Position numbers and translations under genes: made by a program. The notes under the pieces were generated by a model that was given only the letters and a program-made list of their open reading frames with translations, searched no databases and had not been told where the DNA came from. Source: Bacteroidales bacterium (GTDB lineage Bacteria; Bacteroidota; Bacteroidia; Bacteroidales; ML635J-15). Taken from it: a DNA stretch of 46,011 nt. Shown one piece after another: positions 12,101-22,403 of the stretch (position 1 is the first letter of the stretch; each line of letters starts with the position of its first letter). The DNA lies in NCBI GenBank assembly GCA_028702535.1, contig JAQVOR010000009.1:1-46011 (forward strand). Reading direction: 5' to 3'.

Positions 12101-14572
12101 TTAAAACTTCAACACCACTCCTATCATAAAATTTATTCCTGCTTGCGGATAATAATACGCCCAAGTTTGCTCTAATCCTTGTTCGTACCAGATACCACCA
12201 TAAGCATTATTAGAGTAATCAACATTAAGTATGTTATTTATTAAGAATTTTATTTGAATTTCGCTAAATAGATTTGTGGTAAACGTATAATCCAATTGTA
12301 AGTTATTTACCAAATACGCATCAAGCATTCTGTTTTCATTTGAAGTATTATCAAAGAATTGATCGCCAACATATTTTGAAATCCAACTAATATTAAATCC
12401 AGTTATTGGTTTAAATGATACAATACCCGATGCTATAATATTTGGTGAGTATGCAATGTCAGTTTCCCCTAAATTATAAGCTTCAAAAGTTTCGTTCCAC
12501 ATTTCGTCATAAGCAGTAGCCCACGAAGTAAAATTCTTTATTTTGTTTTGACTGAATGTACAGTTAGCGTCTATACTCAACATTTTATGAGGTTTAATTC
12601 CAGCAGAAAACTCAACACCAGCACGATAACTTTCGGGTACATTTGTCATAATATCATAGCCTACACTGGATTTTTCGCCTGTTGGTACTAACTGATTTTT
12701 ATAATCCATATAATATAAATTCATGCCAAAATTCAGATTTGATTTTTGAAAGATATATCCAAGTTCAATATCATTTAAGGTTTCATACATCGGAGTTTTG
12801 TTAGGATCACCAGTTGCATCTTTAAAATTTGTTCTTGTTGGCTCACGATTTGAAATTGCAAAGGACACATAAGCTTTCATTTTAGGATTTATAAAATAAT
12901 ATAAACCAGCTTTAGGATTAATAAAATCAAAACTATGAGTCTGTTTTAAGTCTTTTTGGTCTCCATCAGGCATTAAATCATAATCTTTTCCAGACATATC
13001 ATAATTTATATGACGATATTGAATATCTCCATAAGCGAATAAATCTTTCACAACTTGATAATTCAGTTTTGCGAAAACATTCATCGAAACTTTTGTACCT
13101 GTATTTCGATACCACTCAAAATCTTTTTCCACATCGCCAGGATTACTCATCCAAATAATATTTCCAAAATGCACTCCATCATAAATATTTCCAGCACCGC
13201 CAAGACTTACTCTTAGTTTTTCTGATTTATAATTTGCCGATAAAGTTCCACCATAAAAATTATTTCCCATCATTTTACGCTGAATAATATCACTTTCAGA
13301 AATAAGGACATCTGGAGAATTTAAAGTGTCAATCCCAATAATTACAGGAAGCCCTTGAACAATAACATTTGGAAGCCCATATTCATCAAGTATTGCATCT
13401 TCTTTGTACTGCTCATAATAACCATCTCCGCGAGTGTAATGCAAACCTGCACTAATGTCTATTTTATCATTAAACATGTAAGAATATAGCAATTGATAAT
13501 GGGTTTGAATGTAATTATCGGTTTGGTCTTTATAATATTTTCTATTTTCTTGATTATCAAAATATTCACCTGCCGGATTGTATGTTCTATCAATTTCCAG
13601 CATTTCTTCAGGACATCCCCACCACGAGATTCCTGTTCTTTGACGACCGTGAATAAAATTAGCTCTCAAAAGACTTTTCTCATTTCTCCACGAAGTTGTG
13701 AACATAACAGATTGATTTTTTGCAAAAGCGTTTTCAACATATCCATCACTATTAACATTCGACAATCTTAAATCAAAAGAAAGCCCATTATTTATTAAGC
13801 CAGTTCCAGCAGAAATACTTTGTTTAAATGTATTAAAACTTCCACCTATTAAGCTTACCTGTGCATAAGGTTTATTGTTTGGATTTCCAGTTAAGAAATT
13901 CATACTCCCACCAAAAGAAGCCGCTCCGTTTGTTGAAGTTCCAACGCCTCTTGTAATTTGGACACTACTGACCGAGCTTCCAAAATCTGGCATATTTACC
14001 CAAAATATTGTTTGAGATTCTGCATCATTTAAAGGCATACCATTGACTGTAACGTTAATACGAGTTGGATCGGTTCCACGTATTCTATAATTTGTATAGC
14101 CAATACCTGTTCCAGATTCTGATGTTGCCACAAATGAAGGCGTTAATTCCAACATATACGGTAAATCTTGGCTAAAATTTCTTTCTTCCAAAGCTGCTGC
14201 ATCAATAATGGTATTAGCTACAGGTGCAAGGTCATCAGCACGTGTTGCCGATACAATAACTTCGGAACTCATCATTTTTGAGATAGTAAGAATAATATCT
14301 CCAATGTTCTGGTTTTTTGTTTTTTTGTCAATTTCAAGTTCAAAATCCAGATATCCAACAAACGAAAAAACTAAAACAGTTGGCTTTTTAGATATTTCAA
14401 GCGAAAAACGACCATTCGCCTCAGTACTTACACCATTATTAGTGCCTTTTTCGACAACATTTGCACCTACCAGTGGCTCGTTTTGGAAATCGACGACCCT
14501 TCCAATAATTACTTGACTAAAAATTTGGGAAACAAATAAACTTAAAATTAAAATAAAAAAAATACGTTTCAT
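12101..14572 (-). CDS. TonB-dependent outer-membrane receptor, predicted thiamin importer
   Basis: 823 residues. A signal peptide (first ~19) is followed by a carboxypeptidase-regulatory-like beta-sandwich (~22-105; GRVVDFQNEPLVGANV, TEANGRFSLEI). A plug domain comes next (~110-230; RIRGTDPTRINVTVNGMPLNDAESQ, TNGAASFGGSMNF), then a 22-strand-type barrel ending in an aromatic residue (VVLKF). The family imports ligands across the outer membrane using TonB energy. Substrate: the 5' leader is a TPP riboswitch, and thiamin-regulated TonB receptors in Bacteroidota are predicted thiamin (precursor) transporters. No inner-membrane thiamin transporter is adjacent. The substrate call rests on the riboswitch alone. 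Confidence 0.88.
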   Translation of the reverse strand: MKRIFFILILSLFVSQIFSQVIIGRVVDFQNEPLVGANVVEKGTNNGVSTEANGRFSLEISKKPTVLVFSFVGYLDFELEIDKKTKNQNIGDIILTISKMMSSEVIVSATRADDLAPVANTIIDAAALEERNFSQDLPYMLELTPSFVATSESGTGIGYTNYRIRGTDPTRINVTVNGMPLNDAESQTIFWVNMPDFGSSVSSVQITRGVGTSTNGAASFGGSMNFLTGNPNNKPYAQVSLIGGSFNTFKQSISAGTGLINNGLSFDLRLSNVNSDGYVENAFAKNQSVMFTTSWRNEKSLLRANFIHGRQRTGISWWGCPEEMLEIDRTYNPAGEYFDNQENRKYYKDQTDNYIQTHYQLLYSYMFNDKIDISAGLHYTRGDGYYEQYKEDAILDEYGLPNVIVQGLPVIIGIDTLNSPDVLISESDIIQRKMMGNNFYGGTLSANYKSEKLRVSLGGAGNIYDGVHFGNIIWMSNPGDVEKDFEWYRNTGTKVSMNVFAKLNYQVVKDLFAYGDIQYRHINYDMSGKDYDLMPDGDQKDLKQTHSFDFINPKAGLYYFINPKMKAYVSFAISNREPTRTNFKDATGDPNKTPMYETLNDIELGYIFQKSNLNFGMNLYYMDYKNQLVPTGEKSSVGYDIMTNVPESYRAGVEFSAGIKPHKMLSIDANCTFSQNKIKNFTSWATAYDEMWNETFEAYNLGETDIAYSPNIIASGIVSFKPITGFNISWISKYVGDQFFDNTSNENRMLDAYLVNNLQLDYTFTTNLFSEIQIKFLINNILNVDYSNNAYGGIWYEQGLEQTWAYYYPQAGINFMIGVVLKF

Positions 14573-15547: not shown

Positions 15548-17320
15548 TTATTTTTCGATGTAAATTTTTTTCTTTTTATCAAAATACTCTGTATGCAACA
15601 AGTGATGTGCTTTTTCACTCATTGGCTGACCTAAGAATTCTTCGTAAAGTTTAACAATCTCAGGATTTTCGTGAGATTTACGAATAGCTTTACCCTCATC
15701 CTCTCTGTATATAGCAGCAGCACGAGCTTTCAAGATATTGATATCTCCATGATGTAAAGGTTGACCACCTCCACCAATACAACCACCAGGACAAGCCATT
15801 ATCTCTATTGCATGAAACTCACTTTCACCTTTTTGAATTGCCTCTAGTAATTTACGAGCATTTCCAAGTCCGTGTGCTATACCAATATTTAGTTTTAATC
15901 CGTCAAAATCGACTACCGCTGAGCGAACGCCTTCAAAACCTCTAAGTTGTTCAAATTCTACTTTTTCGAGTTTTTTCTTAGTGTAAATCTCATACGCAGT
16001 TCTACAAGCAGCTTCGATAACACCACCAGTATTTCCAAAAATTACACCTGCGCCCGTTGATTGTCCCATTAGCTTATCAAAATCTTCGTCTGGTAGATGT
16101 TTAAAATCGCCAATACTTTGTTTGATTAAGTGAGCTAATTCGCGAGTTGATATTGAATAATCCACATCGGGATTTCCATCGACAGCAAACTCTTCGCGTT
16201 GAGATTCATATTTCTTAGCTAAACAAGGCATAACCGACACAACAATCAAATCTTCACGTTTAACGCCTAATTTATCAGCCATATATGTCTTTGCAATAGC
16301 ACCAAACATTTGCTGAGGAGATTTAGCAGTTGAAGGAATATCTTTCAATTCTGGGAAATTGTGTTCAAAAAATTTAACCCAAGCCGGACAGCAAGATGTT
16401 AATAATGGTAATTTCACATCTTTATCACCAGCAAGAAATTTTGTAAGCCTGCTAAGTAATTCAGTTCCTTCTTCCATAATTGTAAGGTCGGCAGCGAAAT
16501 CTGTATCAAAAACTCTATCAAATCCTAATCGACGCAGAGCGGCAACCATTTTACCTGTAACAATTGTGCCAGGTTTTAAACCAAACTCTTCGCCTAAAGC
16601 AACACGAACCGCAGGAGCTGTTTGCACAATCACAGTTTTATTTGGATCGGCCAGAGCTCTAATAACTTTATTTGTATGATCCTGCTCGGTAAGAGCACCT
16701 GTAGGACAAACTGCAACACATTGTCCGCAGAAAGTACAAGGAGACTGAATAAGATCTTGCTCAAAAGCAGGAGCAACAACAGCGGTAAAACCTCGATTTA
16801 TTCCACTCAACACACCACAAGTCTGAACCTCGTTACACATAGTTTCGCAACGACGACACATAATACATTTATCCATATCACGAATGATAGCTGGCGAAGA
16901 ATCTGATTTATAACTTGATTGCTCACCTTGATAATGTATTTCGCGTACCCCTAATGTTTGGGCCAGAGTTTGCAAATCACAATTTCCATTTTTCGCACAA
17001 GTTAAGCACTCAAATGGGTGATCAGACAATATTAACTCCATAACAGTTTTGCGAGCGTTTAAAACACGCATTGTATGAGTTTTAATGTCCATGCCCTCCA
17101 TAACTTTGGTTACGCATGAGGGTGCAAGGTTTCTACGTCCAGCAACCTCTACAACACATATACGACATCCACCAGGGTTATGTGTAATACCCAAGTCTTT
17201 AAGATTCATATAACATAATGTAGGAATCTCTATGTCAATTTTTTTAGCAGCTTGAAGAATTGTTATTCCTTCCTCAACCTGTAATTCTTGTCCGTTTATC
17301 TTAATATTTATAAGAGTCAT
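15548..17320 (-). CDS. hydA: [FeFe]-hydrogenase catalytic subunit (HydA), NADH/ferredoxin type
   Basis: 590 residues. From the N-terminus: a [2Fe-2S] plant-ferredoxin-type domain (Cys at ~36, 52, 55, 69), a His-ligated [4Fe-4S] (HPFECLTC then C, ~101-114), and two [4Fe-4S] (CIMCRRCETMC ~153, CTFCGQCVAVCP ~196). The H-cluster domain has all three signatures: TSCCPAW (~308), MPCLAKKYE (~364) and EIMACPGGCIGGGGQP (~505). The residue set is complete and should be active. It makes or oxidises H2 in the cytoplasm. With HydB and HydC beside it, it fits the trimeric electron-bifurcating group A3 type, coupling NADH and ferredoxin. AGGAG precedes the ATG. Maturases (HydE/F/G) are not in this window. 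Confidence 0.94.
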   Translation of the reverse strand: MTLINIKINGQELQVEEGITILQAAKKIDIEIPTLCYMNLKDLGITHNPGGCRICVVEVAGRRNLAPSCVTKVMEGMDIKTHTMRVLNARKTVMELILSDHPFECLTCAKNGNCDLQTLAQTLGVREIHYQGEQSSYKSDSSPAIIRDMDKCIMCRRCETMCNEVQTCGVLSGINRGFTAVVAPAFEQDLIQSPCTFCGQCVAVCPTGALTEQDHTNKVIRALADPNKTVIVQTAPAVRVALGEEFGLKPGTIVTGKMVAALRRLGFDRVFDTDFAADLTIMEEGTELLSRLTKFLAGDKDVKLPLLTSCCPAWVKFFEHNFPELKDIPSTAKSPQQMFGAIAKTYMADKLGVKREDLIVVSVMPCLAKKYESQREEFAVDGNPDVDYSISTRELAHLIKQSIGDFKHLPDEDFDKLMGQSTGAGVIFGNTGGVIEAACRTAYEIYTKKKLEKVEFEQLRGFEGVRSAVVDFDGLKLNIGIAHGLGNARKLLEAIQKGESEFHAIEIMACPGGCIGGGGQPLHHGDINILKARAAAIYREDEGKAIRKSHENPEIVKLYEEFLGQPMSEKAHHLLHTEYFDKKKKIYIEK

Positions 17321-17335: not shown

Positions 17336-19129
17336 TTATTTAATAAATATTGCACTAAATTTACACTTATCATAACATGCTCCGCATTTAATACAGATGT
17401 CCTGATTTATTTCGTGAGGCATTTTGCGTTCACCAGAAATTGCATTTACCGGACAAACACGTGCACATGCTGTACAGCCGACACAAGCTTCTGCATCTAT
17501 GATATACTTTTTAAGAGCGGTACACTTACCTGCACGACATTTCTTATCTATTACGTGCTCAACATACTCGTCCCAAAAATTTGCCAAAGTTGACAATACT
17601 GGATTTGGAGAAGTTTGTCCTAAGCCACAAAGTGAAGTATCTTTAATTACTCCGCTAAGGTTTTTCAAAAGCTCAAGGTCTTCCATTGTTCCTTTGCCCT
17701 CAGTAATTTTGGTAAGTATTTCGTGCAAACGTTTGTTCCCTATTCTACAAGGTGAGCATTTACCACATGATTCTTCAACTGTAAACTCAAGAAAGAATTT
17801 GGCAATAGATACCATACAGTCGTCCTCGTCCATTACAATCATACCACCCGATCCCATCATAGAACCAGCAGCAATAAGATTATCAAAATCTATTGGTGTA
17901 TCAAGATGTTTTTCGGTAAGACATCCACCAGAAGGACCACCAGTTTGAACAGCTTTAAACTTTTTACCGTCTTTAATTCCACCACCAATTTCATAAATGA
18001 CTTCACGTAATGTAATTCCCATCGGGACTTCAATTAGTCCGACATTATTGATTTTACCAGCAAGAGCAAAAACCTTAGTTCCTTTTGATTTTTCGCTGCC
18101 AATAGATGCAAACCAATCGGCTCCTTTTAATAGAATTACCGGAACAGAGGCAAAAGTCTCTACGTTATTTACGTTACTAGGTTTTCCGAGATATCCAGAT
18201 TCAGCAGGGAAAGGTGGTTTTACGGTAGGTTCACCTCTATGACCTTCCATCGAGTGTAGTAATGCGGTTTCTTCACCACAAACGAAAGCTCCAGCTCCGT
18301 ATCGAAGTTCGATATCAAAATTAAACCCAGTACCCAAAATATCTTTTCCAAGTAATCCGTACTCCATTGCTTGTTTTATAGCAACTTTAAGTCGATGTAT
18401 TGCAAGAGGATATTCAGCTCTAATATAGATAAGACCTTTATCTGCGCCCATTGTATAGCCACAAATTGCCATTGCTTCAAGAACTGTATGAGGGTCGCCT
18501 TCGAGAACTGATCTGTCCATAAAAGCCCCAGGGTCACCTTCGTCAGCATTACAAACCACATATTTTTGGTCGGACGCTTGTTTTGCAGCAATTTCCCATT
18601 TTAAACCTGTAGGAAAACCGCCTCCTCCACGTCCACGAAGTCCAGATTTCTTTATTACATCAATAACTTCTTGTGGTGTCATCTCCATAAGAGCCTTACC
18701 TAAAGCCTGATACGCATCACGTGCGATTGATTCATCAATATCCTCAGGATCGAGGAAACCACAATTGCGTAAAGCTATCCGTATTTGTTTTTGATAAAAC
18801 CCCATGTGTTTTGAGTCGCTAACACTTTCTTTATTTGTAGGATCTACATACAACAATCTGTGTACCTTACGTCCTTTAATAATGTGTTCCTCAATAATTT
18901 CTTTAGCATCTTCTGGTTTGACCTGTGTATAGAAAGTGTTATCAGGGATAACTTTTACAATAGGTCCTTGTTCACAAAACCCGAAACATCCTGTAACAAC
19001 AACTTTAGCCTCATCCTCTAACCCATGTGACTCTAACTCGGCATTAAGTTGCTCCACAATTTGATTGCTTTGAGAAGCCTTACAACCTGTACCACCACAA
19101 ACTAAGAGATGCATTTTGTACTTGTTCAT
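17336..19129 (-). CDS. hydB: Hydrogenase NADH-binding subunit, NuoF-like (HydB)
   Basis: 597 residues. An N-terminal thioredoxin-like [2Fe-2S] domain (CGGTGCKAS ~11, CFGFC ~48) is followed by the NuoF core with its Gly-rich FMN/NADH site (RGRGGGGFPTGLKW ~165-180) and NADEGDPGAFMDRS. The [4Fe-4S] ligands SCGKCSPCR and a later CGLG come next. Two C-terminal [4Fe-4S] ferredoxin motifs follow (CVGCTACARVCP, CIKCGACYDKC). This three-part layout is diagnostic of HydB in bifurcating hydrogenases, where FMN is the proposed bifurcation site. GGAGG is placed well before the ATG. It is separated from hydA by 15 bases and from the upstream gene by 18. Confidence 0.94.
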   Translation of the reverse strand: MNKYKMHLLVCGGTGCKASQSNQIVEQLNAELESHGLEDEAKVVVTGCFGFCEQGPIVKVIPDNTFYTQVKPEDAKEIIEEHIIKGRKVHRLLYVDPTNKESVSDSKHMGFYQKQIRIALRNCGFLDPEDIDESIARDAYQALGKALMEMTPQEVIDVIKKSGLRGRGGGGFPTGLKWEIAAKQASDQKYVVCNADEGDPGAFMDRSVLEGDPHTVLEAMAICGYTMGADKGLIYIRAEYPLAIHRLKVAIKQAMEYGLLGKDILGTGFNFDIELRYGAGAFVCGEETALLHSMEGHRGEPTVKPPFPAESGYLGKPSNVNNVETFASVPVILLKGADWFASIGSEKSKGTKVFALAGKINNVGLIEVPMGITLREVIYEIGGGIKDGKKFKAVQTGGPSGGCLTEKHLDTPIDFDNLIAAGSMMGSGGMIVMDEDDCMVSIAKFFLEFTVEESCGKCSPCRIGNKRLHEILTKITEGKGTMEDLELLKNLSGVIKDTSLCGLGQTSPNPVLSTLANFWDEYVEHVIDKKCRAGKCTALKKYIIDAEACVGCTACARVCPVNAISGERKMPHEINQDICIKCGACYDKCKFSAIFIK

Positions 19130-19147: not shown

Positions 19148-19540
19148 TTAATCAATAGAGTGATAATTAGCTGGTATAATACCTTCTACTAACTCACCGT
19201 TTTTAATATATTTTTCTATTATCTCATCAGCTCTGTCAATAGTAACATAACCAAACACTACTGGGTCTTCACCTGGGCGTGTAATTTCTACTGTAGGTTC
19301 AGCATAACAATATCCCATATCACCTACTTGTATTACTAAAGCTTCTACATTTCTCTTTTCAATCTCCTCTATAAAGTAGTTCATAATTTCTTTTGCTCCT
19401 GATGCTATGCCACTAGTAGCCATACCTACTTTAATTTGAACTATTGCATCGGGCGAATCGCTTTTTACACGAAGATTGATCTTGTTTTGCAAATCGTCTT
19501 TCATTTTACGTAAGTCTGCAAGATTGTTGATTTTATTCAT
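19148..19540 (-). CDS. Small [2Fe-2S] ferredoxin-like protein of hydrogenase operons (HndB-like)
   Basis: About 130 residues. The frame is open to 19585, but the ATG at 19540 is preceded by GGGAGG at ideal spacing, so that start is chosen. The protein has the thioredoxin-like [2Fe-2S] fold pattern of the family found as first gene of hnd/hyd operons: a MATSGIASGAKEIM segment, GDMGYCYAEPTVEITRPG and VFGYVTIDRADEIIEKYI. The usual cysteine set is not obvious: only one Cys (GYCYAE) is seen, so the cluster may be absent. Role inferred: accessory or electron-transfer partner of HydABC. Confidence 0.8.
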   Translation of the reverse strand: MNKINNLADLRKMKDDLQNKINLRVKSDSPDAIVQIKVGMATSGIASGAKEIMNYFIEEIEKRNVEALVIQVGDMGYCYAEPTVEITRPGEDPVVFGYVTIDRADEIIEKYIKNGELVEGIIPANYHSID

Positions 19541-19582
19541 CGTTTTACCTCCCGGTTTTGTTAATAATTTTATTTTACGCCT

Positions 19583-19614
19583 CAAAAATATTAAATGTTA
19601 TTACACAAAACAAA
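19583..19614 (-). promoter_or_regulatory. Promoter of the hydrogenase operon (TTTG-N20-TATTTTTG)
   Basis: On the minus strand a -33 TTTG (19611-19614) is followed after 20 bases by TATTTTTG (19583-19590), a perfect Bacteroidota promoter. The start of transcription would be near 19577, leaving a leader of ~37 bases with the GGGAGG ribosome site. An inverted repeat, ACAAAAC (19605-19611) / GTTTTGT (19617-19623), overlaps the -33 box. Confidence 0.65.
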
Positions 19615-19619
19615 TGGTT

Positions 19620-19655
19620 TTGTTATTTTCTTAACACTGTTACACTTATAACAGG
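19620..19655. promoter_or_regulatory. Two tandem Rex-type operators upstream of the hydrogenase operon
   Basis: Two perfect 16-base palindromes TGTTA-N6-TAACA stand one base apart: 19621-19636 (TGTTA TTTTCT TAACA) and 19639-19654 flanks (TGTTA CACTTA TAACA at 19638-19653, with outer C/G making 6-base arms). The first, extended by one T, matches the published Rex consensus TTGTTAANNNNTTAACAA except at its two variable-looking A positions. They lie directly upstream of the -33 box. The same double arrangement occurs at 22368-22403. Rex senses NADH/NAD+, fitting an NADH-linked hydrogenase. A CRP/FNR-family protein with TGTNA-N6-TNACA preference is the alternative. Confidence 0.6.
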
Positions 19656-19731
19656 CAATTTAAACCTAATCTAAATAACAAGCCTGTTTTTACAATGATA
19701 ATTAACTAACTACCAACAGATTATAAGAATA

Positions 19732-19745
19732 TTGATTTATATCAA
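19732..19745. promoter_or_regulatory. Perfect FNR-type box TTGAT-N4-ATCAA
   Basis: TTGATTTATATCAA fits the FNR consensus exactly, extended to ATTGAT/ATCAAT. It lies ~155-170 bases upstream of the predicted start of the hydrogenase transcript. An FNR/CRP-family activator could bind here under anoxia. The distance is larger than usual for direct activation. Seen: the palindrome. Inferred: the regulator. The rest of 19656-19965 shows no gene. Confidence 0.45.
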
Positions 19746-19965
19746 TCCAAATAAAGATAAACAATTCTGTTGAACAACATTTATAATTTTAATGACTAAC
19801 TATAAACCTCTTATGCTTTCCTGACTATTGTCATGCTTTTCGCATGATAAAAATCATAATTGATTTTAAGAAACTCGCAAAAAAAAATAAAAGGAAAAAT
19901 AAATGACCATAAAACAATCTAAAAGCCATTAAAAATTATCAAAATTTAGTGAGATTTTAATAAAT

Positions 19966-20496
19966 TTAAGCAATGCTTTGAGTGATAAATTCTGTGAGAC
20001 TTTTAATAACTGATGCACTATTAATTTCAAAACCTTCAAAAACCTCTTTCACACTGTTAGAGTCAATAGAAAACTCATCAAGATCATTTTTATATTTAAA
20101 AACAAAATTAATTTGCTGATATTGACAAACAAAAGATGCTATACATTCGGCTACATTGCCAAGAGGTTGTCGGTCGATATGATTTTTTCCAAATGTGGCT
20201 TTAACAAAGGTTCCCTGTCCAGGGGTAGAATCAATAAGAAATTTACCTCCTGTGAGATTTGCATTGAACTTTAACAAAGCCAAACCCATACCAGTTTTTC
20301 TTTCTTTTCGACTTGAGAAAAAACTTTTATTTATCGCCTCTAAAGTTTCTTTATCTATACCACAACCATTATCGGAAATTGAAATACTTATAATATTATC
20401 AATATCCGAATCTATAAGTTCTATTTTTATAAAACTAGCTCCTCCCCTAATTGAATTATGAATAATATCAGTAATATGCATATCAAGTGTTTTCAT
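19966..20496 (-). CDS. GHKL ATP-binding protein (stand-alone histidine-kinase-like domain)
   Basis: 176 residues, essentially one HATPase_c domain: N box HITDIIHNSIRGGAS (~8-20), G1 box DNGCGID (~42), F-box-like FFSSR, and G2 box GMGLALLK (~69). The N-box asparagine is kept. No phosphorylatable His domain or sensor is attached, so it is a stand-alone ATPase/kinase. It overlaps the PHP gene by 4 bases (coupled) and is the last gene of the accessory operon upstream of the hydrogenase. Similar genes occur beside [FeFe]-hydrogenase operons of other anaerobes, where a signalling role is supposed but unproven. Confidence 0.85.
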   Translation of the reverse strand: MKTLDMHITDIIHNSIRGGASFIKIELIDSDIDNIISISISDNGCGIDKETLEAINKSFFSSRKERKTGMGLALLKFNANLTGGKFLIDSTPGQGTFVKATFGKNHIDRQPLGNVAECIASFVCQYQQINFVFKYKNDLDEFSIDSNSVKEVFEGFEINSASVIKSLTEFITQSIA

Positions 20497-21224
20497 AATT
20501 TAGGAAAATTTAGGATTGCAAATTTAAGAGCAGTTTTTATTTCATCAAAACACAAATGTTCTAGTTGCAAACAATTATATGATTTACCAATATCAGTAAT
20601 AAAATGTGCGTCGGAGTTTGTAATATAATTATAATTTTTAAACCAAGGGAATTTTTCTAAGAAATCATTATTTTGAGCAAAAGGGCTAAGCTCCATTACA
20701 TTAAAATTAAGATTATCAGGAACAATACCAAGTTGGGAACTAATACTATATCTGGGGCGGTCAACATGAGCTGGAATAAAGATGCCGTTCATCTGTGCCA
20801 CACGGTCTGCCAATTCATTTATACTTAGATCCAATGAATTAATTAATAGATGCTCAATTTCGCCAATAATGTTTTCATTTTCATCAACAATAAATTGGTC
20901 GCCAAATTTATCAGGCGAGTTAGGAAAAAAAGTTTGTTTAGAGTCTAAAAAGTCTTGAAAATCATTAAGCGATGTCATATCAGGCATAAAGCAAATTGAG
21001 TGAACCTCTTCTCGCGTATTAACCTCCACTCCCAGCATAACATATACACCATTTTTTTTACCAATATTATGAGTTACTTCGGCATTTAAAGATGAGTTGT
21101 GATCTGTAATTCCTATTATATCAATATTTTTCTCAACAGCCTTCTTGATTATTTCAGAAGGGCTCATTGACAAGTCTCCACAAGGAGATAAAACAGTATG
21201 TATATGCAGATCTGCTTTATAATT
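20493..21224 (-). CDS. PHP-domain metal-dependent phosphoesterase
   Basis: About 243 residues from a GTG at 21224 (protein beginning MNYKADLHIHTVLSPCG). The frame opens at 21263, but that start overlaps the upstream gene by 47 bases and adds a non-conserved hydrophobic leader. Family motifs: DLHIHTVLSPCGDLSMSP (motif I with two His), GITDHNSS (motif II, ~48), and NSDAHFITDIG near the C-terminus (motif IV). Metal ligands are therefore complete. PHP enzymes hydrolyse phosphoesters with Zn/Mn/Fe; the substrate is unknown. It overlaps the DRTGG gene before it and the GHKL gene after it. Confidence 0.85.
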   Translation of the reverse strand, partial: NYKADLHIHTVLSPCGDLSMSPSEIIKKAVEKNIDIIGITDHNSSLNAEVTHNIGKKNGVYVMLGVEVNTREEVHSICFMPDMTSLNDFQDFLDSKQTFFPNSPDKFGDQFIVDENENIIGEIEHLLINSLDLSINELADRVAQMNGIFIPAHVDRPRYSISSQLGIVPDNLNFNVMELSPFAQNNDFLEKFPWFKNYNYITNSDAHFITDIGKSYNCLQLEHLCFDEIKTALKFAILNFPKL

Positions 21225-21555
21225 CACAATTAATAAGATTATACAGTTTAGCACAAAATTCATAACATGCTAAATTAGTAACCAACACCGCAACATTTTC
21301 TAAATTAGCATGCTCAAGCATATCCACATCAGGTTTACCATTATTAATTAGGACAACTGCCGGAATATCTTTAAGCGAAGCAATTGCAGCAACATTTTTA
21401 TGTGTTTGCATAGTAATCCACAGTTCTTCAGCCTCAGCATTTCCCATAACATCGCTTAACAGATCCGATGCGTAAGCACTTTTAATATCTTCATCTTCGT
21501 TAGCAGCATTAAGTACAACGAGATCAAGTTTTTTAATTATTTCTGACAATTTCAT
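21217..21555 (-). CDS. DRTGG-domain protein
   Basis: 112 residues, a single DRTGG-type domain. The conserved pattern is AYASDLLSDVMGNAEAEELWITMQTHKNVAAIASLKDIPAVVLINNG (residues ~28-75, partial quote by halves), followed by a C-terminal CYEFCAKLY. The literal DRTGG tetrad is not kept, as in many short members. The family is a ligand-binding regulatory domain linked to kinases and CobB-like proteins; the ligand is unknown. Its stop overlaps the GTG of the PHP gene. A paralogue is encoded two genes upstream (21983-22333). Confidence 0.8.
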   Translation of the reverse strand: MKLSEIIKKLDLVVLNAANEDEDIKSAYASDLLSDVMGNAEAEELWITMQTHKNVAAIASLKDIPAVVLINNGKPDVDMLEHANLENVAVLVTNLACYEFCAKLYNLINCEL

Positions 21556-21565
21556 AATATATAAG

Positions 21566-21976
21566 TTACAAATAAATAATTATATGAGCATTTGTACCGA
21601 GTCCTTTAATACTTTCTATTTCAAAAACATCAGCATTTCTCTTAATATTTGGCAATCCCATTCCAGCACCAAACCCCATTTCTCGAACAGAATTTGAAGC
21701 TGTAGAATACCCCTCACTCATAGCTAAATCAACATCTTCGATGCCAGGACCATAATCTTTCACAAACATTTGAACCTGATTTTCTTCAATTAGTACTCTT
21801 ATTGTACCATGATCTGCATGAGCGACAACATTTATTTCAGCTTCAAACAAAGCAACTACGATTCTCTTTATTTTTGCTGGATCGACATTACGCTGTTTTA
21901 AAGCCCTCTTAATAGTACTTGAGGCATTTCCTGCGACTGAAAAATTTGCACCTTCTATTTCAAATAAATATTCCAT
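21566..21976 (-). CDS. RsbW/SpoIIAB-like anti-sigma-factor ATPase
   Basis: 136 residues, one HATPase_c domain of the serine-kinase/anti-sigma type: N box VVALFEAEINVVAHA (~40-55), G1 box KDYGPGIEDVDLAM (~74-87), and G2 box GFGAGMGLPNIKRNADVF (~102-118). The MREMGFGAGMG layout is that of small RsbW/anti-sigma kinases found beside DRTGG genes. No RsbV-like antagonist or sigma factor is adjacent. Lies 6 bases after the first DRTGG gene and 10 before the second. Confidence 0.83.
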   Translation of the reverse strand: MEYLFEIEGANFSVAGNASSTIKRALKQRNVDPAKIKRIVVALFEAEINVVAHADHGTIRVLIEENQVQMFVKDYGPGIEDVDLAMSEGYSTASNSVREMGFGAGMGLPNIKRNADVFEIESIKGLGTNAHIIIYL

Positions 21977-21982
21977 AATATA

Positions 21983-22333
21983 TTAATAAAGCGGTTTAAT
22001 ACCATAGGAATACAACTCTCCACAAACCCTGTAAACACTATGGTCTGTTTCTAACAAACAGATATCACAATCCTTAGCAATACTAAGCATCTGGGCATCA
22101 CATTTTTTACCCCTACATATAATAATGAGATTTATTTCAGCCATTTCTGCGGTACGAATAGTTTGCACATTACACAAGCCAGTTATCAGCATGGTTTTGT
22201 CATAAGTCAGTCTCAAAACATCACTCATCAGATCTGACGCAAAAGCAAACTCAAAATCATCAGTACTTAAAGTACATACGTCGCCACAAACTGAGCGTGC
22301 ATCAATTAGTTTTATTATTTCATTCATCAACAT
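21983..22333 (-). CDS. DRTGG-domain protein, first gene of the hydrogenase accessory operon
   Basis: About 117 residues from the ATG at 22333. A longer frame begins with TTG at 22354, but that TTG lies inside the -7 promoter box, so it cannot be translated from this promoter. The domain pattern matches its paralogue at 21217: FAFASDLMSDVLRLTYDKTMLITG (in two halves), TIRTAEMAEINLIIICRGK and the C-terminal YRVCGELYSYGI. It differs by extra cysteines (CGDVC at ~14-18, CDAQ, CDIC). A cysteine-rich DRTGG domain next to a hydrogenase could sense redox or Fe-S status, which is speculation. Confidence 0.78.
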   Translation of the reverse strand: MLMNEIIKLIDARSVCGDVCTLSTDDFEFAFASDLMSDVLRLTYDKTMLITGLCNVQTIRTAEMAEINLIIICRGKKCDAQMLSIAKDCDICLLETDHSVYRVCGELYSYGIKPLY

Positions 22334-22351
22334 AACATTCCATTTTTTTTG

Positions 22352-22359
22352 CAAAGGTA
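22352..22359 (-). promoter_or_regulatory. -7 box TACCTTTG of the hydrogenase accessory operon
   Basis: Minus-strand TACCTTTG matches TAnnTTTG exactly, about 20 bases before the ATG at 22333. The -33 region falls inside the Rex-type sites at 22368-22403, so a bound protein would block RNA polymerase. Confidence 0.55.
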
Positions 22360-22367
22360 ATAAGTTT

Positions 22368-22403
22368 TTGTTATTTCATTAACATTGTTATTTACTTAAC
22401 ACC
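22368..22403. promoter_or_regulatory. Two tandem Rex-type operators upstream of the accessory operon
   Basis: Two perfect TGTTA-N6-TAACA palindromes (TGTTA TTTCAT TAACA at 22369-22384; TGTTA TTTACT TAACA at 22386-22401) are separated by one base. Aligned over 36 bases with 19620-19655, every half-site matches and all differences fall in the spacers. Both sites extended by a leading T match Rex TTGTTAANNNNTTAACAA well. They overlap the expected -33 region, which suits repression. Confidence 0.65.

Follow-up and report, generated by a model that had tools for sequence, protein, structure and literature searches.

Doubled palindromes resembling tandem Rex operators precede hydrogenase, signaling and sensor–rex operons in a Bacteroidales genome and its relatives

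We analyzed a 46,011-nucleotide stretch of DNA from a Bacteroidales bacterium (hereafter, the window; contig JAQVOR010000009.1 of GenBank assembly GCA_028702535.1), which is part of contig 47 in a 3.49-Mb draft genome of 239 contigs. The window carries an [FeFe]-hydrogenase operon and a five-gene accessory operon of signaling-type proteins, both on the minus strand and each preceded by a doubled palindrome. The first-pass annotation had read these as operators of the regulator Rex and described two perfect TGTTA-N6-TAACA palindromes, one base apart, in each promoter region. Our scan bears this description out for all four palindromes:

19621..19636, no strand assigned: operator palindrome of the hydrogenase promoter, proximal to the -33 element, 0 mismatches
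19638..19653, no strand assigned: distal operator palindrome of the hydrogenase promoter, 0 mismatches, 1-bp gap to the first, centers 17 bp apart
22369..22384, no strand assigned: operator palindrome of the accessory (signaling) operon promoter, proximal to the -7 element and over the place of the -33 element, 0 mismatches
22386..22401, no strand assigned: distal operator palindrome of the accessory operon promoter, 0 mismatches

These are the only four matches without mismatch in the window. The four half-sites are identical, as had been stated; the further statement that the two 36-base stretches differ only in their spacers needs correction, because 25 of the 36 bases agree and differences also fall in the 1-base gap and in the last two flanking bases. 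The likeness to known Rex operators holds, with a palindrome core equal to the Rex motif ATTGTTANNNNNNTAACAAT of Thermoanaerobacter ethanolicus (PMC5886521).

The evidence throughout is comparative sequence evidence, drawn mostly from draft genomes, in which absences are uncertain. It comes from a first sample of 61 genomes (the window genome and 60 relatives), an order-wide sample of 295 genomes from 183 genera and an outside sample of 197 genomes from other orders of the phylum, the last scanned for the doubled site only. We defined the doubled site strictly, as two TGTTA-N6-TAACA palindromes with a 1-base gap and at most one mismatch, and used the pattern read backwards as the control for palindrome scans. 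In the window genome, the palindrome by itself shows no enrichment (16 places versus 31 for the control), and on this count we discarded the single-palindrome scan as evidence. Eight of the 12 single palindromes outside the window lie inside open reading frames, and the two intergenic single sites outside the doubled ones stand by OsmC-like and Crp-family genes (L023) and by genes without a Pfam match (L024). The doubled site occurs at four places in the genome; the next match has three mismatches, a level at which the control also yields one to three. Read backwards, the doubled pattern is absent from the 61 genomes and found at one place in the 295. With gaps of 0–30 bases allowed in the 61 genomes, the gap was 1 base in 21 of 22 exact pairs and 29 in the other, and the control gave one pair. 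The signal is carried by the pair and none of it by single sites, so that the claim of a motif above chance survives for the doubled arrangement and fails for the single palindrome. Doubled sites were present in 17 of the 61 genomes (1–4 copies each) and in 65 of the 295 (46 of 183 genera), and in none of the 197 outside genomes. An origin in chance or AT-rich low-complexity similarity could appeal to the single palindromes being fewer than their control, but the backward, free-gap and other-order results, together with the same operon types behind 49 of 51 sites, led us to reject it as having a negligible probability.

Each of the four doubled sites in the window genome heads an operon of [FeFe]-hydrogenase or accessory type, and rex belongs to one of these operons. 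Conservation of the doubled site extends to part of the order, where similar sets of genes follow it, as had been expected of a true operator. In the first sample, 49 of 51 sites precede one of four operon types, the other two lying before a glutamate dehydrogenase gene (L116) and by an M28 peptidase gene (L150). A second sample comprised 40 sites from 36 genomes outside the first, hand-picked among the matches listed and omitting many sites on the rex contig. There, a gene of a hydrogenase, accessory or sensor operon lay no more than 600 bp from 25 sites, and 11 sites preceded glutamate dehydrogenase; two more stood by 4Fe-4S protein genes, one lay before hypA on a stretch that also carries rex and one was unassigned. 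Glutamate dehydrogenase loci with a doubled operator belong to other families (L116, L210, L214, L223, L227, L229, L233-L235, L237, L238 and L240), and this gene lies behind no doubled site of the window genome. The proposal of one regulon joining the two window operons thus stands as far as both carry the site, and the set is wider than proposed, taking in a second hydrogenase operon of NuoE-, NuoF- and HydA-type genes, a sensor–rex operon and, in other families, glutamate dehydrogenase. Alcohol dehydrogenase, Nqr/Rnf and butyryl-CoA dehydrogenase, which had been put forward as further targets, were not found among the genes identified beside 91 doubled sites.

The two window operons contain the following genes, in order from their promoters:

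19148..19585, minus strand: hydrogenase operon gene 1, weakly 2Fe-2S-ferredoxin-like; no Pfam match, NCBIfam 33 bits against a cut-off of 150
17336..19129, minus strand: HydB-type NuoF-like flavoprotein subunit
15548..17320, minus strand: HydA, [FeFe]-hydrogenase catalytic subunit; NCBIfam group A6, 908 bits
15054..15536, minus strand: HydC-type NuoE-like 2Fe-2S subunit
21983..22354, minus strand: accessory operon gene 1, DRTGG-like; 22.7 bits, under the Pfam cut-off of 25.2
21566..21976, minus strand: accessory operon gene 2, RsbW/SpoIIAB-like ATPase
21217..21555, minus strand: accessory operon gene 3, HPr-kinase N-terminal-like; borderline, 24.1 bits against a cut-off of 24
20493..21263, minus strand: accessory operon gene 4, PHP-domain protein
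19966..20496, minus strand: accessory operon gene 5, protein with a histidine-kinase-type ATPase domain

HydA keeps the H-cluster motifs TSCCP, MPCLAKKYE and MACPGGC and is accompanied by NuoF- and NuoE-like subunits, the composition of NADH-dependent group A6/HydABC-type enzymes; by this family resemblance, the predicted enzyme may be electron-bifurcating. The TTG start of hydrogenase operon gene 1 overlaps the -7 box, so the true start is perhaps ATG 19540 (130 amino acids (aa)); alignments begin at residue 13-16 in 15 of the 16 best loci and at residue 1 in two close relatives. Accessory gene 1 perhaps starts at ATG 22333 or 22327. In 9 of 14 accessory operons of the first sample, the RsbW-like and HPr-kinase-N-like genes flank a HydS-like [FeFe]-hydrogenase gene (for example, L125:5843-7162, 439 aa), which the window genome (junction 21555-21566) and G010, G012, G020 and G024 do not have there.

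The two other doubled sites of the genome head operons outside the window. The second hydrogenase operon (contig C234, L027) codes for NuoE-like, NuoF-like and HydA (871 bits) proteins, and two electron-transfer flavoprotein genes follow it on the same strand (L027:236-2034). The sensor operon (contig C55, L017) codes, in order, for a NuoE-like protein, a NuoF-like protein, a HydA-like protein, a fusion of an [FeFe]-hydrogenase domain with a histidine kinase, a receiver, a receiver-kinase and Rex:

L017:8378-9001: rex, protein P0001 of 207 aa; the same doubled operator heads its operon

The rex gene that the first-pass annotation suggested seeking is thus present, and its product passes the NCBIfam Rex models (200 bits against the NF003995 cut-off of 126). 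P0001 has an N-terminal DNA-binding domain (PF06971, 52 bits) and a Rossmann-type CoA_binding domain (PF02629, 64 bits), and it matches the Rex structure 2vt2 in the Protein Data Bank with an E value of 6e-33. A GxGxxG nucleotide-binding motif is a feature of Rex, and the GMGHLG of P0001 fits it. In Thermotoga maritima Rex, Arg48 and Lys49 of the recognition helix contact bases (PMC8836258); in the P0001 helix, QVRRD, the arginine is kept and the lysine is replaced by arginine, as in Rex chains 2vt2 and 3keo. The glycine-rich wing, given as strictly conserved in the same source, reads GTQRKGY in P0001, with the outer glycines and the tyrosine kept and one middle glycine of the aligned chains replaced. 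At two other loci with the doubled site, L225 and L226, a gene for a divergent Rex-like protein (30-31% identical) lies near that site and faces away from the accessory operon.

The hydrogenase domain of the kinase fusion reads SSDCP(AIV) and has no equivalent of the proton-shuttle residue Cys299, which is also missing from putative sensory [FeFe]-hydrogenases of groups C and D (PMC8163306). The sensor operon therefore likely adds an H2 input, and, because a kinase-fused sensory-type hydrogenase domain and rex sit together, one operon would read both H2 and NADH. The closest named matches of the fusion protein are from Bacteroidales metagenome-assembled genomes (91 and 89% identical). The sensor kinase is present at 24 loci of named records; rex lies behind it in 18, and the other six records stop earlier. 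A doubled site with at most one mismatch is found in two of these loci and a version with two or three mismatches, mostly with TCACA half-sites, in eight, all just upstream of the NuoE-like gene; 14 have no site at up to three mismatches, including one record that starts inside the operon. The general Rex consensus TTGTGAANNNNTTCACAA has TCACA as its half-site (PMC6391272).

Two further features of this region concern hydrogenase-like proteins. The HydA-like subunit of the sensor operon (L017:3240-4874, C55) has altered active-site motifs (TDCPA, SPCIAHKYE and SCKSGCIDGCGQ), as it does in all four genomes of the window genus readable by motif scan; catalytic-type motifs such as MPCTAKK are kept in G050 (L146) and in four of five named Bacteroidales loci read. 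It may be an enzyme turned sensor in the lineage of the window genus. At 2.5 kb past rex, a hydrogenase-domain protein without a kinase domain is followed by a SpoIIE-type phosphatase (L017:11491-13353 and 13356-14540), a pair that could possibly form a second H2-signaling branch working with the RsbW-like protein of the window.

Doubled sites and rex travel together. In the order-wide sample, rex was found in 64 of 65 genomes with the site versus 117 of 230 without it (Fisher p = 5e-15, a value that ignores kinship and is inflated by non-independence), and in 29 of 32 genomes tabulated with a listed site and rex on one contig, the two are 7.5-8.5 kb apart. Within the window genus, nine genomes have both rex and the site, 17 have neither and none is mixed (n = 26). 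The accessory first gene was found in 14 of the 17 rex-less congeners and the hydrogenase first gene in 11, the rest lacking the genes or giving weak hits. A scan of 400 bp upstream of these first genes, 25 stretches in all, found no operator; the best matches had 6-10 mismatches, as did shuffled sequence. The G015 locus, which is not among these 25 and is cut at a contig edge, gave no site in the same scan, although a longer stretch of it contains one. Genomes with the site thus nearly always have rex, and the site was not found at the promoters scanned in rex-less congeners. A tree of hydrogenase-operon proteins (28 rows, without G033, which had no HydB hit, and without G002, G013 and G017, rex-less congeners with the accessory gene) suggests three co-losses of site and rex in the genus, in a clade of nine, in G025 and in G009, with moderate support for the forks behind the latter two (90/89 and 87/76). 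From a tree of Rex proteins we took the comparison of recognition helices alone: all 17 first-sample genomes with the site have a VRRD-[ILM]-M helix, and the 13 other rex-bearing genomes comprise six with a KDLS-like helix, two with VRRD, three that are very divergent (L110, L111 and L112) and two read in the wrong frame (L086 and L099). Taken together, we consider it very probable that the doubled sites are tandem Rex operators, at which two dimers would repress transcription at low NADH. Rex binding, the direction of regulation, cooperation between dimers and the response to NADH are what we infer from these comparisons.

The position of the operator relative to the promoter bears on how it might act. 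In Bacteroidetes, promoters are marked by a -7 box, TAnnTTTG, and, though not in every case, by a TTTG at -33 (PMC7366714). Elements near the window operators are listed here, with offsets counted from the operator's first base:

19583..19590, minus strand: -7 element TAnnTTTG (TATTTTTG) of the hydrogenase promoter, 63 bp from the operator start
19611..19614, minus strand: candidate -33 element TTTG, adjoining the operator and 20 bp upstream of the -7 box
22352..22359, minus strand: -7 element (TACCTTTG) of the accessory promoter, at an offset of 42 bp
19732..19745, no strand assigned: second palindrome, TTGAT-N4-ATCAA, upstream of the putative Rex operator; 5 of 12 hydrogenase promoters have one at -91

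A -7 box is expected by chance at about 0.0007 per position. In the first sample, its offset is 63/64 in 11 of 12 hydrogenase promoters (42 in the other); 42/43 in 8 of 14 accessory promoters, 62/63 in three and 33, 34 and 38 in the rest; and 38/39/42 in 11 of 14 sensor-operon promoters, with 51 once and no box in two. Hand counts of the offsets in the second sample gave 62-64 in five, 41-43 in three and 54 in one accessory promoter, and 63/64 in six and 42 in one hydrogenase promoter. The second hydrogenase operon has no downstream -7 box except at one shared divergent site; a looser pattern chosen post hoc, TAnnTTT[GA], occurs 41-43 bp upstream in 8 of 10 cases, a placement that would put the operator within the transcribed leader. 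For glutamate dehydrogenase, a single gene was examined in this way (L116), and its -7 box begins 12 bp ahead of the operator. In most accessory and sensor operons, the operator lies between -33 and -7. An operator that overlaps or follows the promoter, as it appears to at most of these promoters, would fit a repressor. The second palindrome, which we take to be FNR/CRP-like, was also sought as TGAT-N4-ATCA: it lies at -78 in 6 of 10 second hydrogenase operons and at -98 in one, and in none of 14 accessory and 14 sensor promoters; for each of these sets, including the hydrogenase ones, shuffled sequence would yield about 0.1. A second, FNR-like regulator likely acts at the hydrogenase operons, at no obvious activator distance from the -7 box of the hydrogenase promoter.

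Several observations weigh against tandem Rex repression. The main hydrogenase operator, and some accessory ones, lie upstream of -33, which is unusual for a plain repressor. One genome, G165, has three sites and no rex hit at 92% completeness, and G037 and G042 have a VRRD-type Rex without a strict doubled site. The well-supported branches of the 28-row tree alone force two changes only. The rex-less congeners also yielded no full-length sensor kinase, which indicates that the rex operon was probably lost as a whole; the loss of sites could then follow that of the sensor operon and not of rex alone. The Crp-family gene beside the single palindrome at L023 makes regulators with similar half-sites possible. 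In such an account, another dimeric regulator, of Crp/Fnr type or a two-component regulator from the sensor operon, would bind the tandem site and rex would be a mere neighbor in one target operon. The receiver-domain protein and the receiver/histidine kinases coded in the sensor operon, and the FNR-like sites before both hydrogenase operons, would supply candidates, but the 130-aa receiver protein has no DNA-binding domain seen in a domain search, sites in other families are followed by the gene of glutamate dehydrogenase, an enzyme linked to nicotinamide cofactors, and both the palindrome core and the degenerate half-sites noted above are those of published Rex sites. We regard this alternative as improbable.

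Tandem Rex operators would work as follows. Two Rex dimers would sit on adjacent palindromes whose centers are 17 bp, or 1.6 helical turns, apart, and this spacing would place them on different helix faces, where they could pack without clash. At low NADH, Rex, free or bound to NAD+, would hold down the hydrogenase, signaling, second hydrogenase and sensor–rex operons. NADH makes T. maritima Rex leave DNA (PMC8836258), and a rise in NADH would likewise release Rex here, so that hydrogenase would be made and NADH reoxidized with release of H2. With rex in its own regulon, Rex would be remade in the process, closing a feedback loop.

The preferred registers of the -7 box, 41-43 and 62-64, lie 21 bp, or two helical turns, apart; plain occlusion would not require such a spacing, which hints at contact with RNA polymerase. 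RNA polymerase footprints extend as far upstream as an operator in the 62-64 register. We think it rather unlikely that Rex has a dual, phase-locked role, activating or contacting RNA polymerase from the upstream register and repressing elsewhere. Such a role would account for the hydrogenase and accessory -7 boxes that fall in one of the two registers (23 of 26 in the first sample and 15 of 16 in the second), but promoters of orthologous operons do not count as independent cases, the sensor operon is mostly at 38/39 and so out of phase with 42, and ordinary occlusion could act at the upstream register as well. A related and tentative possibility, which we find doubtful, is that the tandem operator forms a rigid scaffold, with cooperating Rex dimers held in fixed helical phase with RNA polymerase and the register switching between families, giving a steep NADH threshold and possibly upstream activation. 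If true, one NADH sensor would repress the sensors and tune hydrogenase output, a mode of Rex action apparently undescribed in the portions of the literature drawn on here.

Rex control of hydrogenases is known elsewhere. In Caldicellulosiruptor bescii and Thermoanaerobacterium, Rex sites are predicted before [FeFe]/[NiFe] hydrogenase operons and hydG, and in C. bescii those at hydrogenase genes are supported by gel shift, with another site before rex itself (PMC6391272, PMC5886521). The palindrome core is shared with T. ethanolicus, as noted, but the sites in the Caldicellulosiruptor and Thermoanaerobacterium material available from these sources are given singly, whereas here they form a fixed tandem pair; the two Rex sites at T. 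saccharolyticum adhE are about 120 bp apart. Those regulons also reach ethanol and carbon genes, whereas the present one is hydrogenase-centered, with glutamate dehydrogenase added in other families. A Rex site is predicted for the hnd operon of Solidesulfovibrio fructosivorans, and Rex and HydS have been proposed to act in Ruminococcus albus (PMC10084766), so that there too a multimeric bifurcating hydrogenase would answer to both Rex and a sensory hydrogenase; the parts of that source used here describe neither a tandem operator nor an operon uniting sensor hydrogenase, kinases and rex. The putative sensory hydrogenases Tm HydS and Tam HydS (groups C and D; PMC8163306) likewise have no Cys299 equivalent, but in the present operon the kinase and hydrogenase domains form one protein and are encoded with rex. 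A title-level literature search returned no title on a fixed tandem or cooperative Rex operator or on Rex in Bacteroidetes/Bacteroidales. The fixed doubled operator and the autoregulated, hydrogenase-centered regulon therefore look like a new form of an otherwise known control.

Hydrogen production appears to be tied to the redox state of the cell in the window genome and many of its relatives. The tandem operator is specific enough for candidate Rex targets to be sought by pattern alone, and the rex-less congeners that keep hydrogenase genes without operators offer a natural experiment in regulator loss. The regulon proposed here would provide a testable account of when many uncultured Bacteroidales may vent electrons as H2, a currency of exchange with methanogens and other consumers of the gas.

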